Of a DNA stretch of 64,000 nt, positions 460-7,339 are shown one piece after another. The notes beneath the pieces were generated by a model. That model had not been told where the DNA came from, did not search any database, and saw only the letters and a list, made by a program, of their open reading frames with translations. The position numbers and the translations under genes were made by a program. Numbering within the stretch: position 1 is the stretch's first letter; every line of letters starts with the position of its first letter. The stretch is from Actinokineospora pegani (GTDB lineage: Bacteria > Actinomycetota > Actinomycetes > Mycobacteriales > Pseudonocardiaceae): NCBI RefSeq assembly GCF_009745975.1, contig NZ_WHOL01000068.1, positions 1 to 64,000 of the forward strand, given 5' to 3'.

Positions 460-616
460 CAAAGCCGTGGGACGCGGAGCCCCCGGAAGTTCCTGGGAGG
501 TGCGGGCTGGCCCCGCGCTGAAACCGGGTCCGCACGGGCGTTGGCGAACCGTTGGCTGATCTTTGGCCCTGGTTGCGAGGGTGGAGACCATCACCCCTTC
601 GGCGAGAGGAACGGCC

Positions 617-736
617 GTGAAGACCAAGACCACGACCAAGAGCAAGCCCGCCAGCATGAAGAAGATCCAGGTCCGGAAGGCGGGCGCCGTGCGCCTGACC
701 TCCGCCGCGTGCGAGTGCTACCACATCGAGGTCTGA
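617..736 (+). CDS. Candidate RiPP precursor peptide, 39 residues
   Basis: GTG at 617 to TGA at 734-736, with an AGAGGA ribosome-binding site 6 nt upstream. The peptide has a Lys/Thr-rich N-terminal half (eight Lys in the first 21 residues), a central RKAGAVRLTSAA segment and a short C-terminus with Cys32 and Cys34 (CECYHIEV). This leader-plus-core layout is typical of ribosomally made, modified peptides. It lies 61 nt upstream of a membrane metalloprotease with a PqqD-like N-terminal domain, followed by a TPR protein, all on the same strand. No lanthipeptide, YcaO or radical-SAM enzyme is present, so the modification, if any, is unknown. I do not recognise a named family. The coding call rests on the RBS, composition and context. 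Confidence 0.55.
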   Translation: MKTKTTTKSKPASMKKIQVRKAGAVRLTSAACECYHIEV

Positions 737-797
737 GGTCCGCTCCGTGCATGGGCGCTCCCCGCGCCCATGCACGGCTCCAACCCGAAGGGGCCAC

Positions 798-2009
798 GTG
801 ACCGACACTCTCGACCAGCCGCTCGCCTTTCACCCCCTGGTCTACCTGGAAGACGGCGACGAGGTGACCATCGGTCGCCCGGACACCGACTCCTACGCGG
901 TCTTCCCCGCCGACGGCGCCGAGGTGGTGCGCAGGCTGGCCGCGGGCGAGCCCCCCACCAGCGTGGGGCGCTGGTACGAGGCCGAGTACGGCGAGGTCAC
1001 CGACATGGACCACATCATCGGCGCCCTCGAGGAGCTGGGGTTCACCCGCGCGGCCGAGGAGCCCGCAGCGGTGGCGGAACCGGTGCGCTGGCAACGGCTG
1101 GGCGCCGCGCTGTTCTCCCCCGTCGCGTTCGCGGTGTACGCGGGCCTGCTCGGATGGGCGGTCGTGGCCGCGGCGCGCGATCCCGCGCTGCTGCCCGACT
1201 ACCGGAACCTGTTCTTCACCGACTACTTCACCGTCATCGAGGCCGTCCTCATCCTCGCCGCGATCCCGCAACTGGTCCTGCACGAGGGGTTCCACGCCCT
1301 GGCGGGCCGCAGGCTCGGGCTGAGGTCACGGCTGCGGTTCGGCCGCAGGCTCTACTTCCTGGTCGTGGAGACCTCGCTCGACGGGCTGGTCGCGGTGCCC
1401 CGCCGCAAGCGCTACCTGCCCATCCTGGCCGGGGTCCTGGCCGACGTCCTGGTCCTCGCCGTGCTGGTGCTGGTCGCCGACCTCACCCGGGACCCCGGCG
1501 GCGGGCTGTCGATGAGCGGCCGGGTCTGCCTGGCCGTCGCGTACGCCACGACGCTGCGTCTGGCCTGGCAGCTCTTCCTCTACCTGCGCACCGACCTGTA
1601 TGTCCTCATCAGCACCGTGCTGGGGTGCGTCGACCTGCACCAGACGGCCAAGCGGACGCTGCGCAACCGGTTCAACCGGCTGCTGGGCCGAGAGCACCGC
1701 CTGATCGACGACTCCGAGTGGCACCCGGTCGACCGGAGGGTCGCCCGCTGGTACTCCTGGCTGATCGTCGGCGGGTACACCGCCAGCATCACCACCTTCG
1801 TGGTGGCCGTCGGCCCCGCCGCCTACCAGTTGTTCTCCGGCGCGATCGGCCGGTTCTTCGCCACCGGCTCGGTGCCCGCGCGCGATCTGCTCGACTCCGT
1901 GGTCTTCCTCGTCGTCACACTCGGCCCGCTGGCGGTCGCGGGCTGGCTCGCCGTGCGCGACCGCAGGCGCCGCCGCGACCAGGTGCGGCCCGTGCACGTC
2001 ATCTCCTGA
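798..2009 (+). CDS. Membrane zinc metalloprotease (M50-like) with PqqD-like N-terminal domain
   Basis: 403 residues from GTG 798, with a GAAGGGG ribosome-binding site just upstream. Residues 10-85 look like a PqqD-type winged helix (RiPP recognition element): a strand-rich start and a VGRWYEAEYGEV...ALEELGF pattern. Then follow about six hydrophobic segments. The second carries HEGFH (162-166), the HExxH zinc motif of site-2-type proteases, and a downstream AGVLAD (Asp216) fits the third zinc ligand. The arrangement resembles the YydH-type peptide zinc metalloproteases of RiPP loci. It sits between a candidate precursor and a TPR gene that starts 11 nt after its stop. Inferred role: binds the leader of the peptide and cleaves or exports it at the membrane. 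Confidence 0.7.
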   Translation: MTDTLDQPLAFHPLVYLEDGDEVTIGRPDTDSYAVFPADGAEVVRRLAAGEPPTSVGRWYEAEYGEVTDMDHIIGALEELGFTRAAEEPAAVAEPVRWQRLGAALFSPVAFAVYAGLLGWAVVAAARDPALLPDYRNLFFTDYFTVIEAVLILAAIPQLVLHEGFHALAGRRLGLRSRLRFGRRLYFLVVETSLDGLVAVPRRKRYLPILAGVLADVLVLAVLVLVADLTRDPGGGLSMSGRVCLAVAYATTLRLAWQLFLYLRTDLYVLISTVLGCVDLHQTAKRTLRNRFNRLLGREHRLIDDSEWHPVDRRVARWYSWLIVGGYTASITTFVVAVGPAAYQLFSGAIGRFFATGSVPARDLLDSVVFLVVTLGPLAVAGWLAVRDRRRRRDQVRPVHVIS

Positions 2010-2020
2010 AGGGAACCCCC

Positions 2021-4051
2021 ATGCGCGAACACCTGTGGCTGCCCGGCACCCCCCGACCGCCCGCCTCGGCGCACTCCCCGGTGCTTGCCTGGATCGACGC
2101 CCACCGCCACCACCGCGGTCCCTACACGCTGGTGGGAACGCTGCTGCGGGAGATCGTCGACGACGCGCTGGAGCGCTGCCCCGGCATCGGGGAGCGCGCC
2201 AACGTCGCCATCCTCACCTGCGCGCCGGAGTTCGCGGGCGCGGTGCCCCCGATGGAGACCCCGCTCCAGCTCATGTCCAAGGCGGGCGAGCGCACCCGGT
2301 TCCAGGCCCGTCTGCACACCCTGCGCATCTCCCACGGCGTCGTGGACCTGCTGGCCGAGTACCTCGCCGCCCGCGCCGACGGCCCGATGGCGCTGGTGGT
2401 GGCCAACGCGGACTCGGCCGACCCGACCGACCAGGAGTTCCTCGCCGTCGCACTGCGCCGCCTCGACCCGGCCGTGCTGCGGCTCGTGGTGGGCGCGGCG
2501 GGGTCGGTCGTCGACCCGCCCGGACCGGTCGCCGCGTCGCTGCCCGACGCCTTGGCCGAGTACGCGACGCGGCTGGAGGGCACCGAGTCGACGGTGGTCG
2601 CCACGTCCTTCGTGGACAGCGATGGCACGGTGGCCGACCCGGCCTACGACGCGCTGCCCCCCGGGGAACGCGCCGCGCTGCACGACGCCCACGCCGCACG
2701 GCTGACCGCGGTCGGCGAGTTCTCGCTGTCCCTCGGCGCCATCCCGTTCCACCTGGAGCGCGGCTCCGACCCGGCCGCCGCCGCGGTCGCGCTGCGCCAG
2801 GCCCAGGTGCACTGCCGCAACCTCGGCATGTACCACGCCGCCGCCGACCTCGGCGAACGCGGCCGGGCGCTGGTCGACCGGGCGGACGACCCCGAACTGT
2901 GGTGGGAGTTCACCGGTGGCATGACCACCGCGCTGTCCTCCGCCGGGCGCGCCGACGAGGCCGAGACGGTCTACGGCGAGGTGCGGGCCAGTTCCACCGA
3001 TCCCGCCGTGCACATGAAGGTCGCCTACGGCATGGCGATGCTCTACGCCCGGCACCACGCCCCCGAACGCCACGACTACCAGGTGGCCAGGAGCTGGCTG
3101 AACCTGGCCATCGCGCTGGCGACGCGGCTCGAGGACCCCAAGGAGCGCACCTACTTCACCGTCTTCAACGGCAACGGCCTCGCGCTCGTGGCCATCCGCC
3201 AGGGCCGCGTCGACGAGGCGATCGCGCTGCTCGACCAGGGAATGGAGCGGCTCGACCGCGAGCTGGACCCCGGTGAGCGGGCGATGCACCGCGCGGGTCT
3301 GCGCTACAACCGCGCCCGGGTGCACACCATGCTCGGCAGGCTGGACGAGGCGCTGGTCGAGTACACCGCGGTGATGGCGATCGACGAGGGGTTCGCCGAC
3401 CACCACTTCAACCGCGCGGCCGTCCTGCTGCGGATGGGCCGCCCGGCCGAGGCGATCGCGGACTACGAGGAGGTCATCCGGCTGTCCCCGCCGTTCCCCG
3501 AGGTGTTCTACAACTGCGCCGACGCCCGCCTGGAGCTCGGCGACCTCGACGGGGCGCTCGCCGACCTGCGCCGGGTCGTCGACCTCGACCCCGACCACGC
3601 CGACGCGCGGGCGAACCTGGCCGGGCTGCTGTGCGAACTCGACCTGCCGGAGCAGGCGTGGACGGAGATCGCGGCCGGGTTGCGCGTCGCCCCCGAGCAC
3701 CCGCACCTGCTGTGCGCCAAGGCCCGCGTGCTCATCGAACGCGGCGAGACCGACGGCGCCCGCGCGGCGGCGAACGCCGCGCTGAGCGCTGACCCCGGCA
3801 TGGCCCAGGCCTGGGCGCTGCTGGGCTCGTTGGACTACGAGTCCGGCCAGGTCGGCACGGCTATCGAGCACCTCGACCGGGCCGCGGAGCTCGACGACTC
3901 CCCGCAGATCCGGTTCAACCGCGCGGTGGCCCACGAGAGCGCGGGCGACCTCGGCCAGGCGATCGTCGACTACGAGGCGGTGCTCGCCGCCGTCGAGGAC
4001 GACGACGCCCGCACCCGACTGGAATCCTGCAGGCGGGCGCTGGCCCGGTGA
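2021..4051 (+). CDS. TPR protein with degenerate STAND-like N-terminal domain
   Basis: 676 residues from ATG 2021 (AAGGGA ribosome-binding site), 11 nt after the metalloprotease gene, so probably co-transcribed. Residues about 15-165 resemble the nucleotide-binding core of LuxR/MalT-type STAND proteins. The Walker B neighbourhood reads LVVANADSADPTDQEFL where an active protein would have DD-x-x-WADP, and the Walker A position (RGPYTLVGTLLREI) has no GKS/T. Residues from about 260 to the end form many tetratricopeptide-like helical pairs. Inferred: a non-hydrolysing scaffold that binds a partner, plausibly the peptide or protease encoded upstream. No enzyme function can be claimed. Confidence 0.7.
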   Translation: MREHLWLPGTPRPPASAHSPVLAWIDAHRHHRGPYTLVGTLLREIVDDALERCPGIGERANVAILTCAPEFAGAVPPMETPLQLMSKAGERTRFQARLHTLRISHGVVDLLAEYLAARADGPMALVVANADSADPTDQEFLAVALRRLDPAVLRLVVGAAGSVVDPPGPVAASLPDALAEYATRLEGTESTVVATSFVDSDGTVADPAYDALPPGERAALHDAHAARLTAVGEFSLSLGAIPFHLERGSDPAAAAVALRQAQVHCRNLGMYHAAADLGERGRALVDRADDPELWWEFTGGMTTALSSAGRADEAETVYGEVRASSTDPAVHMKVAYGMAMLYARHHAPERHDYQVARSWLNLAIALATRLEDPKERTYFTVFNGNGLALVAIRQGRVDEAIALLDQGMERLDRELDPGERAMHRAGLRYNRARVHTMLGRLDEALVEYTAVMAIDEGFADHHFNRAAVLLRMGRPAEAIADYEEVIRLSPPFPEVFYNCADARLELGDLDGALADLRRVVDLDPDHADARANLAGLLCELDLPEQAWTEIAAGLRVAPEHPHLLCAKARVLIERGETDGARAAANAALSADPGMAQAWALLGSLDYESGQVGTAIEHLDRAAELDDSPQIRFNRAVAHESAGDLGQAIVDYEAVLAAVEDDDARTRLESCRRALAR

Positions 4052-4113: not shown

Positions 4114-4989
4114 TCACGGCAGGCGGCCCGCGACTCGGGTCCTACCGCACGAGTGCCCCGGGTCCACGGCTGGTTCGCCACGCAGGACGGCCTGGTGGGT
4201 GGCGCGCAGGCCGGGGCCGGGCTCGATGCCCGCCTCGGCCACCACGGCCGCGCGCAGCCGGGTGTAGACGCGCAGGGCGTCGGCTGTTCTACCCACCGCG
4301 GACAGCGCGACCATGTACTGCTGGTGCAGGTCTTCGCGCGTCGGGTGCCGGTCGCACAGCTCCGCCAACTCGCCGACGGCCTGCCGTGCGGCACCTTGGC
4401 ACAGGTCCACGCCGATGCGCTGCTGGTGCACCGCCAACCGCTCCGCCTCCAGGTGCACCGCGTAGTTCGCCAGCGGTCCCGCCGCGGCCACGCCTGCCAT
4501 CGCCAGGCCCTGCCACTGGCGCAGGGCGGCGTCGAACCGGTCGCCCGCGTCGGCGCACCGACCCGCCGCCAGCTCACGCCGGCCCGCGCGGGCCAACTCC
4601 CGGAAGACCGCCAGGTCGAGCTGATCGGGACGCAGCCGGATGGAGTAGCCCCGCGTCTCGGTGCGCAGCACCGGGTGCCGGTGCCCGCCACCGCCGATGT
4701 GCCGCCGCACGCCGCAGACGTGCATCTGCAGCGCGGCCGAGGCCGAGCGCGGCGGCCGTTGCGCCCACAGCATGTCGATGATCGTGTCGGTGGGCAGCAC
4801 CTGGTTGTGGTGCAGCAGGAGAATCGCCAGCAGCGCGCGTTGTTTGGGGGCCTGGGGGGAGCAGGGCACACCGCCGCGGAAGACCTCCACCGGCCCGAGG
4901 ACACGGAACCGTAGCAATCCGATTGGAATTGCCGATGTCAAGGGATCGCCATTCCTGTTGTCGGAATATCTCCACCGCGAAACGTACAT
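4114..4989 (-). CDS. SARP-type transcriptional regulator (winged helix plus BTAD)
   Basis: About 291 residues if started at the ATG at 4987-4989. A GTG at 5044-5046 would add 19, and a TTG nearer 4940 or 4920 is possible because the sequence upstream of about 4920 is unusually AT-rich for coding. The frame carries an OmpR/SARP winged helix (LRFRVLGPVEV ... PKQRALLAILLL ... ALQMHVCGVRRHI) and then a bacterial transcriptional activation domain. It lacks the NB-ARC ATPase of AfsR. Small SARPs usually activate neighbouring biosynthetic genes. It converges on the TPR gene with 62 nt between stops. Control of the peptide locus is an inference from position only. Confidence 0.8.
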   Translation of the reverse strand: MYVSRWRYSDNRNGDPLTSAIPIGLLRFRVLGPVEVFRGGVPCSPQAPKQRALLAILLLHHNQVLPTDTIIDMLWAQRPPRSASAALQMHVCGVRRHIGGGGHRHPVLRTETRGYSIRLRPDQLDLAVFRELARAGRRELAAGRCADAGDRFDAALRQWQGLAMAGVAAAGPLANYAVHLEAERLAVHQQRIGVDLCQGAARQAVGELAELCDRHPTREDLHQQYMVALSAVGRTADALRVYTRLRAAVVAEAGIEPGPGLRATHQAVLRGEPAVDPGHSCGRTRVAGRLP

Positions 4990-5327
4990 ATCGAGGAGCC
5001 GGAACGGTAGCGCTGATCGAGTGTAGCGAAGAACGGCCACGCTCACCGAGGGCTAACAACACCCATCAAGTACATAGGCGCAGGTGGTAGAGGTTCAGAC
5101 ACACGCGGACCGCGATATTGTTCCCCATCGTCTTGTCGGTTGGAAAACTTCCGCCCGAGACGACATCGCCTTTGTTCTCGATCGCCCTGGAATACGCGAC
5201 CCGATCGCGGAATGGGCACTCGCCCATCACGACGACACGATTCAGCCCTATGCCGAACCTGACGATCGCACAATAGGACCAAGTCACGCGATCTTCATAA
5301 ACCATTTACATCGGCGTATTCCGGCCC
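4990..5327. other. Intergenic region, relatively AT-rich
   Basis: About 340 nt between the SARP start and the ferredoxin terminator. It is less GC-rich than the flanks and holds only short overlapping frames with no recognisable product. It probably contains the SARP promoter. I see no RNA gene. Confidence 0.5.
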
Positions 5328-5380: not shown

Positions 5381-5578
5381 TCAGGACTCGGCGAGGGTGA
5401 GTGCCCCCGAGGGGCAGACGAGGACCGCCTGCCGGGCGTCCTCCTCGTCGGCCGGGGGCGGGACGGGCTGCAGGACCACCACGGTGCCGTCGTCCTCGTC
5501 CTGGGTGAAGACGCGCTCGGCCAGCATGGCGCACTGGCCCGCGCCCACGCACATGTCTTTGTCCGCCAGGACCTTCAC
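5381..5578 (-). CDS. 3Fe-4S ferredoxin
   Basis: 65 residues from a GTG start with a GAGGAG ribosome-binding site. Cys10, Cys16 and Cys55 (followed by Pro) fit the three-cysteine pattern of actinobacterial 3Fe-4S ferredoxins, with Gly13 or Ala14 in place of the fourth Cys. It begins 10 nt after the stop of the P450 gene. It is therefore the likely electron donor to that P450, receiving electrons from a ferredoxin reductase encoded elsewhere. Confidence 0.92.
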   Translation of the reverse strand: MKVLADKDMCVGAGQCAMLAERVFTQDEDDGTVVVLQPVPPPADEEDARQAVLVCPSGALTLAES

Positions 5579-5588
5579 AGGCTTCTCC

Positions 5589-6800
5589 TCACCAGGTGAC
5601 GGGGACTTCGTCGACGCCGCCCGCGACGCGGTTCTTGCGGACGGCGATCTGGTCCAGCGGCTTGGCCAGGGTCAGGCCGGGGAAGCGCTTGAAGATCATG
5701 GGGAAGACCGTGCGCAGTTCGGTGCGGGCGAGGTTGGCGCCGATGCAGACGTGGGCGCCGTGGCCGAAGGCGACGTGGACGTTGGGGGTGCGGTGCGGGT
5801 CGTACTCGTCCGGGGAGTCGAAGACGGACTCGTCGCGGTTGGCCGACTCGATGGAGACCAGGACGGCGTCGCCGCGGGCGATGTGGACGCCCTCGACCTC
5901 GACGTCCTCGTGGGCGTAGCGCAGCAGGCCGACGCCGCCGGTGACGGTCAGCCGGAGGATCTCCTCGACCGCGTCGTTGACCTGGCCGTCGGGGTCGGCC
6001 GCGAAGGCGTCGCGGCGGTCGAGGTCGGTGAGCAGCAGCAGGGTGCCCAGGCACAGGCGGGTAGCGGTGGTCTCGTGGCCCGCGAACAGCAGGCCCGCGG
6101 CCAGGTTGGCCAGGTCGTCGTCGGTGAAGTCGGGGGCCTCGCGCTGCACCTGGACCATGTCGGAGATGACGTCGGGCTTCGGGTCGGCCCGCTTCACCTC
6201 GGCCAGCCGCCGCATGTAGGCGTTGAAGTCGGCCATCGCCTGCCGGGCGTCGGCGCCGCCGTCGAAGATGGCGATGCGCTCGGACAGGTCCGCGAACATC
6301 TCCCGGTCCTCGTACGGCACGCCGAGCAGCTCGCAGATGACCAGGACCGGCAGCGGGAAGGCGAGCGCGGTGTAGAGGTCGACCGGCTGGTCCGGGTCGG
6401 CCGCGTGCTGGGCCTCCATGGCGTCGAGCAGCTCGGTCGCGATCTCGGTGACGCGCTTGTCCAGCGCGCGCATCCGCGGGGCGGAGAACGCGGGGGCCAA
6501 CATGCGGCGCATCCGCTTGTGGTCGGCCTCCTCGGTCTCGAAGTTGCCGCTCGGACCGTCCTGGATCGCCGCGTGCGAGATCCGCGCGGCCTGCTCGGGG
6601 GCCGGGTGCGAACGGCCGAAACGGCGGTCGCGGAAGACCTCGCGGACCGCGTCGTACGAGGTGACCAGCCAGGCCGGGTCGCCTGCCGGGGTGATCACGC
6701 GGACGACCGGGCCCTGCGCGCGCAGCCGGGTGAAGATCGGTGCCGCGGCGAGCGCGTCGGGCCGGTCGAACGGTAGCTGTGGCGCCTCTGCGGTGGTCAT
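5589..6800 (-). CDS. Cytochrome P450 monooxygenase
   Basis: 403 residues from the ATG at 6798-6800, which overlaps the stop of the PadR gene (ATGA). All diagnostic motifs are present: the I-helix AGHETT (240-245), the K-helix ExxR (Glu280-Arg283), and the heme loop [10 protein letters not shown] with the ligand Cys352. Length and layout match soluble CYP105/CYP107-like bacterial class I P450s fed by ferredoxin. Operon order is PadR regulator, P450, ferredoxin. The substrate cannot be read from sequence. The PadR partner suggests induction by a small phenolic or xenobiotic-like compound. Confidence 0.95.
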
Positions 6801-7339
6801 GGCAGTCCCCTCGTCAGTTCCTGGTCGGTGTCGGCGGCGAGTTCGCGCAGGCGCGCCACCCACTCCCGCTCGGCCGTGAGCCGGGCGCAGACCTGCTCGA
6901 GCACCGTCCGGCTCCACGGGTCGTCCTGGGTGTGGACCAGCGCGCCGAGCCGGTCGAGCTCCGCGGCCAGCGCGCGGTCGCGGGTGTCGACGACGGCCGT
7001 GCGCTCGGCGGCGGTGAGCCTGCTGAAGTTGCTCACCCTGGCCAGGAACTCGGCCTCGTTGCGGGCCGCCTCGTCGGGGAAGTCGACGAGCACGTCGTGC
7101 AGCAGCTCCCGCCCGACGTCGGTGATGGTGTACACGTGCCGGGGCGGCTTGGCCTCTTGCTCCTGCGCGCTGCGGGTCACCGCGGCCGCGTCCACGAACC
7201 GCCGCAGCGCCGGGTAGAGCGAGTTGTTCGACAGGGTGCGCCCGGTCGAGCGCTCGATCTCCTTCCGCAGCTCGTAGCCGTGCAGCGGTCCGCCGGACAG
7301 CTTGGCGAGCAGCAGCACCTCGATCCACACGTGAGTCAC
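6797..7339 (-). CDS. PadR-family transcriptional regulator
   Basis: 180 residues from the GTG at 7337-7339. A second GTG three codons in is an alternative start. The N-terminus has the PadR winged-helix signature ([21 protein letters not shown] ... [10 protein letters not shown]) followed by a helical C-terminal dimerisation domain. PadR proteins usually repress themselves and the adjacent gene and release DNA on ligand binding. The gene leads the P450/ferredoxin operon with a 4-nt overlap, so one promoter probably serves all three, next to the palindromes described at 7343-7372. Confidence 0.9.

Follow-up and report, generated by a model that had tools for sequence, protein, structure and literature searches.

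Membrane proteases that act on the precursors of ribosomally synthesized and post-translationally modified peptides (RiPPs) are known from a few pathways. In the daptides, the available part of PMC10036551 describes MpaP as an intramembrane peptidase that depends on a RiPP recognition element (RRE) and removes the leader, and TglG, TmoG and EpeP are presented in the available part of PMC10885120 as membrane M50 proteases acting on RiPP precursors. We analysed a 64,000-nt stretch of DNA from Actinokineospora pegani (NZ_WHOL01000068.1, positions 1 to 64,000; hereafter the window), whose start is base 1 of a 72.6-kb contig and which encodes, in this order, a 39-residue peptide, a membrane protease with a predicted RRE-fold domain, and a tetratricopeptide repeat (TPR) protein. 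This peptide–protease–TPR unit is confirmed here and also occurs in other genomes. We read it, with a probability of about 0.58, as a RiPP-like minimal pathway, whose steps of binding, cleavage, release and modification, as well as its role, we infer from sequence and predicted structure.

A recurrent peptide–protease–TPR cassette

An initial annotation of this DNA had described the three genes as separated by gaps of 61 nt (peptide to protease) and 11 nt (protease to TPR gene), a layout that we recovered unchanged (Table 1), and the same order recurs in other actinobacterial genomes. We searched two genome samples with the window protease. Among 394 genomes from the class, 19 had a match at E ≤ 0.001, in 8 cases at ≥44% identity; among 200 from the family, 33 had some match and 21 reached ≥44% identity. 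The window's own genome and G249 are present in both samples. A scan of named genome contigs with the protease gave three loci. Every place at ≥44% identity was fetched with wide flanks, yielding 31 distinct loci, window included, with L003 and L091 counted once as the same region. All 31 carry short peptide, protease and TPR protein in this order on one strand. Genes in the flanks are uncurated GC-frame calls made in this analysis, the TPR gene of L004 was detected by tblastn only, and the TPR frame of L092 is misassigned, which touches the TPR counts and one of the pN/pS pairs (L092/L095) given below. The nearest named relative is Actinokineospora fastidiosa, with a protease 83% identical to that of the window. 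Phylum-wide, 3 of 296 genomes, the window's own among them, had a protease match at E ≤ 1e-70. Thus, the cassette is spread widely but rare.

Two more divergent cassettes bring the three-gene set to 33/33. One (L152; NZ_CP109482.1, 274251-278188) lies on a linear, insertion-sequence-rich plasmid of Streptomyces sp. NBC_01450, a location that suggests horizontal movement of the cassette; its protease is 40% identical to that of the window, protease and 57-aa peptide are both annotated 'hypothetical protein', and its TPR gene and protease overlap by 4 nt. The other (L153, in genome G740 from another family of the same phylum) comprises a peptide ending in MKMKKFAIRDVETVKTTAAALYIPFFCGGGGWPF, a protease, and a TPR gene reaching the contig end.

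The small open reading frame (ORF) is conserved beside the protease homologs in 31/31 distinct loci, and its two halves behave differently. Cassette peptides share the leader consensus MKKIxVRKxGxVRLT, with a mean pairwise identity of 0.75 (computed on loci from which a 15-residue leader could be extracted) versus 0.29 for the tails at their best offset. The tails span 10-18 residues and contain both Tyr and Cys in all 31 loci (32/33 protease-bearing cassettes, the exception being the L152 tail, FSHQPAIVPV, which has neither residue). Both the shared leader and the Cys-containing C-terminus had been anticipated in the initial annotation, and together they give the peptide the form of an encoded, short RiPP precursor with a conserved leader and a variable core. 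A proposal that the Cys belongs to a lipobox was dropped, as the peptide, judged from its residues, has no hydrophobic signal segment.

Several further observations bear on whether this ORF is a gene. An exact GGAGG stands within 18 nt of a possible start in 25/31 loci, the window being among the six without it. The distance from peptide ORF end to protease start, the latter extrapolated from alignment, ranges from about 47 to 332 nt. Pooled over 16 pairs of related loci, pN/pS (ratio of non-synonymous to synonymous changes) came to 0.26 for the peptide from MKK to stop, whereas the protease gave 0.40 and the TPR gene 0.43 (including the misframed pair); the peptide is under purifying selection. 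Finally, the leader motif R[KR]x[GT]x[VI][RKT]L[TI] occurred 32 times, each time just upstream of a protease gene, and was not found elsewhere in 0.86 Mb on both strands, a search that covered the full window as well as the 12 distant-protease loci described below. The motif was derived from these same peptides, so that only its absence elsewhere counts as independent evidence; since it is confined to positions upstream of a protease gene, the association of peptide and protease is not a matter of chance.

Predicted folds of the protease and its TPR partner

Family scans at E ≤ 1 matched the window protease to neither PqqD nor M50, and among 28 members of the protease family scanned, five matched PqqD (best E 0.018) and seven Peptidase_M50 (best E 0.0016). 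Comparison of predicted structures was more informative. For residues 7-86, the best matches were lasso peptide B1 RREs solved with their leaders, followed by TigE, ThcOx, PqqD, McbB and PbtF, in line with the PqqD-like domain that the initial annotation had placed on this HEGFH protease; this predicted fold would supply the leader-recognition domain characteristic of a RiPP pathway protein. The protease core matched RseP, SpoIVFB and mjS2P. Like other site-2 (M50) proteases, the protein is a multi-pass membrane protein combining an HExxH motif with a distal Asp, and this residue, Asp266, may act as third zinc ligand, as the distal Asp does in site-2 proteases (S2P). The prediction is thus of an RRE/PqqD-fold domain fused to a core of RseP/S2P type in which the catalytic motifs are intact.

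The TPR protein was modelled with high confidence (predicted local distance difference test, pLDDT, 93.4). Its superhelix matches LGN, OGT, NprR and Rap alike; as the unrelated TPR proteins LGN and OGT score as high or higher in the structure comparison, the match shows the TPR fold only. The N-terminal domain carries RGP[YF][TS] in 29/30 cassette proteins, the thirtieth (L092) being misframed. No GxxxxGK[ST] was found in the first 320 aa of these 30 proteins (L092 misframed), nor in the searched stretch of 15 further TPR relatives; the Walker A P-loop that defines STAND ATPases (signal transduction ATPases with numerous domains) was hence seen in 0/30 cassette and 0/15 other proteins, and the initial description of a TPR protein without a working ATPase motif holds. 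At the P-loop position, the G740 protein (L153) has LLEAEPGRSRRDVLQQYL, a degenerate, P-loop-like remnant that would fit an origin of the N-domain from a degenerate STAND-type ATPase. A profile comparison of the N-domain with one LuxR-type ATPase came back empty and did not confirm homology, and no DNA-binding family appears among the 25 of 33 Pfam matches listed for the TPR protein.

Flanking genes and the wider family

Beyond the cassette, no gene is common to the 31 loci, in a comparison for which neighbours were scanned by family in part and no daptide- or pearlin-specific model was run. A candidate third shared gene, a cluster of 99 ORFs from 30 loci, was rejected on closer inspection: 73 proved to be minus-strand ORFs within the protease–TPR span, and the other 26 are scattered over 19 loci, many at matches resembling SARPs (Streptomyces antibiotic regulatory proteins). 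What does recur, in part of the loci, are genes for flavin enzymes. In 13/31 loci, the gene directly after the TPR gene encodes a flavin reductase (PF01613; the L091 protein matches at E 4e-35), with a 4-nt overlap in five of these by the starts taken, and in four more it is of Old-Yellow-Enzyme (OYE) type (PF00724, E 8e-65), 17/31 in total. In L067, a flavin reductase is encoded on the opposite strand, about 4.3 kb upstream. The window has neither enzyme, and the three flavin reductases elsewhere in its genome reach just 33-37% identity, whereas L091, a close relative with nearly the same tail, has a flavin reductase. The flavin enzyme is therefore an accessory rather than a defining step, and with such a gene after the TPR gene in 17/31 loci, the peptide may be chemically modified. 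The statement in the initial annotation that modification enzymes are missing is accordingly right for the three genes in the window and for the gene set common to all loci, and needs qualifying as a general rule.

The SARP-type regulator noted earlier as facing the locus is present (Table 1), with the same arrangement in 7/31 loci, and with so few we dropped it as a part of the unit and regard it as optional. Just beyond it, Pfam matches identify a ferredoxin (5381-5578, minus strand) and a cytochrome P450 (within 5589-7328, minus strand). These were considered as the missing modifier and dropped, as the only other locus in their cluster is L070, with L091 not in it; they possibly represent a separate locus or a window-specific redox partner. 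About 4.5 kb upstream of the L102 protease, a gene reads like radical SAM/pqqE, probably by coincidence.

Table 1. Coordinates of the cassette and of the facing regulator in the window
Feature	Position	Strand	Basis or remark
Ribosome-binding-like GAGAGGA	604..610	+	Precedes the peptide's GTG start
Precursor-type peptide, 39 aa, VKTKTTTKSKPASMKKIQVRKAGAVRLTSAACECYHIEV	617..736	+	GTG start; homologous ORF upstream of protease in 31/31 loci
Conserved leader segment MKKIQVRKAGAVRLT	656..700	+	Predicted RRE-binding part
Variable tail SAACECYHIEV (predicted core)	701..733	+	Tyr and Cys present
RRE-site-2-type (M50) membrane metalloprotease, 403 aa	798..2009	+	Scans, motifs, predicted fold
RRE/PqqD-fold domain, residues 7-86	816..1055	+	Predicted fold
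S2P-like core, residues 142-314	1221..1739	+	Predicted fold
HEGFH zinc motif, residues 162-166	1281..1295	+	HExxH in 31/31
Asp266 of L[RE]TDxY, candidate third zinc ligand	1593..1595	+	L[RE]TDxY in 31/31
TPR protein, 676 aa	2021..4051	+	Family matches, predicted structure
N-terminal domain (about residues 1-230), RGPYT motif, P-loop-less	2021..2710	+	Read as degenerate STAND/AAA-like
TPR superhelix (about residues 251-676)	2771..4048	+	Family matches, predicted structure
SARP-type regulator (BTAD + Trans_reg_C)	4114..5046	-	Faces the cassette

The peptide and its partners also occur in other combinations. Searching 296 genomes with the TPR N-domain gave 14 with a match at E ≤ 1e-15 and led to 15 further TPR loci (L134-L148) in 10 genomes of one family. 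In the fetched flanks (shorter for L143 and L148), neither the window protease nor the flavin enzymes have a relative at any of the 15 loci, and all 15 encode a 24-residue peptide at the TPR gene start, MKKIIVRKPGTVKLTGTASVIHKG and variants, in 11 distinct sequences. Thus, the peptide–TPR pair is not tied to the protease. These loci are two-gene units of a peptide beginning MKKIIVRKPGTVKLTG and an RGPYT-type TPR gene; Tyr or Cys occurs in 0/15 of their peptides, and a C-terminal Thr in three (L134, L135, L147). Among the matches listed, their flanking genes recur in about three settings, and in at least 4/15 loci (L134, L135, L145, L147) a gene reading like a major facilitator superfamily (MFS) transporter follows closely.

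Conversely, a sample of 12 distant proteases (26-35% identity by tblastn), fetched with wide flanks, contained a cassette-type TPR gene in 0/12 loci. Four of these (L074, L076, L079, L081) encode MKKLxVRKLE[SP][VI]K-type peptides and L080 another peptide type, all five peptides with Cys and none with Tyr. The L076 protease is also listed at 38%, near the 40% of L152, so that identity draws no sharp line around the cassette family. Genes of polyketide-synthase or adenylation type, as read from their sequences, flank L076, L079 and L081, which possibly encode peptide-polyketide hybrids. At L072, L073, L077, L078 and L083, the protease relative directly follows a gene of 362-394 aa with a start that looks PqqD-like, an arrangement that reads as a different small RiPP-type set. 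Overall, the leader family turns up in three settings: beside a TPR gene that has no protease nearby, beside a protease that has no such TPR gene, and in the complete cassette. Tyr together with Cys goes with the complete cassette, Cys without Tyr with the protease setting, and the lack of both residues with the TPR setting. This pattern is a correlation confounded by descent, because the sets follow lineages.

Interpretation and known systems

It is the co-occurrence of a leader/tail peptide, an RRE, a protease and an optional redox enzyme that leads us to a RiPP-type pathway. The 39-residue peptide would be made as leader plus tail, and the protease would recognise the leader through its own RRE, with the TPR protein serving as a peptide-binding scaffold or receptor. 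Where a flavin enzyme is encoded, it may act on the Tyr/Cys tail while the TPR scaffold holds this tail; the window would lack such a reaction or have it supplied from elsewhere. At the membrane, the site-2-type protease would then cleave close to the Ala-rich leader end, releasing a short Tyr/Cys peptide of perhaps 6-14 residues. Of the original RiPP proposal, the leader and tail, the RRE on a site-2-type protease and the P-loop-less TPR protein thus stand, the general exclusion of modification enzymes does not, and the idea that protease and scaffold display the peptide found no support in our analysis. Neither of the two outcomes named beforehand as speaking against the proposal came about: the small ORF is conserved next to the protease homologs, and a PqqD/RRE fold is predicted.

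The strongest competing explanation is a peptide messenger: the protease would turn a propeptide into its mature form, which the TPR protein would then sense in the cytoplasm as its receptor. Eep and the Rgg/Rap-type receptors of Bacillota set a precedent for such a layout. However, the likeness of the TPR protein to NprR and Rap is no closer than that to LGN and OGT, the 25 of 33 Pfam matches listed for it include no DNA-binding family, and the flavin enzymes beside 17/31 cassettes fit chemistry better, all of which makes a messenger unlikely in our judgement. More doubtful again is an actinobacterial messenger system encoded by one cassette, for which the RRE would guide the cut of the message, the P-loop-less, STAND-like TPR protein would be a dedicated receptor, and the protease-free pairs would be processed otherwise; if true, RiPP-type recognition would be joined to RRNPP-type sensing, outside both known families.

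The remaining alternatives give the peptide a different part to play. As in pearlin biosynthesis, it might be a carrier for a small molecule that the M50 protease clips off, the tail not being the product; according to the available part of PMC10885120, TglG and TmoG indeed cleave modified amino acids from a peptide C-terminus. Here, though, the tail varies and yet keeps Tyr and Cys in 31/31 loci (L152 being the exception), and no further gene is common to the 31, in a comparison run without a pearlin-specific model, so that we hold a carrier to be quite improbable. Regulated intramembrane proteolysis, with a protease that mainly serves a regulator and a peptide that controls the protease, would suit the S2P/RseP-like core and the SARP facing 7/31 cassettes. 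Set against this, the fused domain resembles an RRE, a binder of peptide leaders, and no regulator gene is common to all 31 loci, leaving this reading very improbable. As to a cis-acting leader peptide, an attenuator or arrest peptide for the downstream genes, the ORF is short, conserved and placed just upstream of the protease (31/31) or of the TPR gene (15/15). Nevertheless, where the protease is present, conservation lies in the N-terminus, and the C-terminal half differs between loci in both sequence and length, the reverse of what arrest peptides require; moreover, the spacing between ORF and protease is not constant (about 47 to 332 nt). Of all readings, we give this one the least credence, and it is hardly to be expected.

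If the RiPP-like minimal pathway is correct, the RRE-bearing protease and its TPR partner together suffice to mature leader-bearing peptides in actinobacteria, chemical modification being an optional extra, and the cassette would offer a simple test bed for the coupling of RRE leader recognition to intramembrane cleavage. MKKIxVRKxGxVRLT beside RGPYT-TPR genes would then be a handle for mining such peptides, a family that mining rules based on modification enzymes may miss. The initial annotation could not match the locus to a described class, nor did we meet a matching class in the literature searched. In the open-access literature, the leader and tail strings had no match, and nothing was returned for an RRE with an M50 peptidase, for a precursor peptide with TPR, M50 and flavin reductase, or for RRNPP with actinobacteria and Eep. 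The available parts of three RRE papers (PMC12710340, PMC7470986, PMC13381572), of the cacaoidin paper (PMC8068269) and of a survey of SARP regulators (PMC12224297) contain no such architecture.

Among known systems, epipeptide pathways include a radical SAM epimerase and pearlin pathways a peptide aminoacyl-tRNA ligase. The present loci, by contrast, share no gene beyond the cassette, their neighbours being partly scanned; the likeness lies in the membrane M50 proteases EpeP and TglG/TmoG, which work on RiPP precursors (PMC10885120, available part). Daptide MpaP comes close in having an RRE fused to a PF02163-type membrane peptidase and clustered with a short precursor (PMC10036551, available part), whereas daptide precursors have a C-terminal Thr, in which 0/31 tails end here, and no further gene common to the 31 cassettes was found in a comparison that ran no daptide-specific model. 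Lasso peptide B1 proteins and PqqD have the fold predicted for protease residues 7-86; here, the domain is fused to a site-2-type protease, with no other shared cassette gene. The RRNPP receptors NprR, Rap and PlcR resemble the third protein in their TPR superhelix and in the placement of a TPR gene beside a short peptide gene, and differ in that the cassette protein has an RGPYT N-domain and no DNA-binding family among the 25 of 33 matches listed. STAND/LuxR-type ATPases with TPRs share the layout of N-domain plus TPR, of which L153 keeps a degenerate, P-loop-like stretch, while Walker A is absent from the 30 cassette proteins (one misframed) and the 15 others. What sets the cassette apart from the classes compared is a minimum that has no modifying enzyme and includes a TPR partner.

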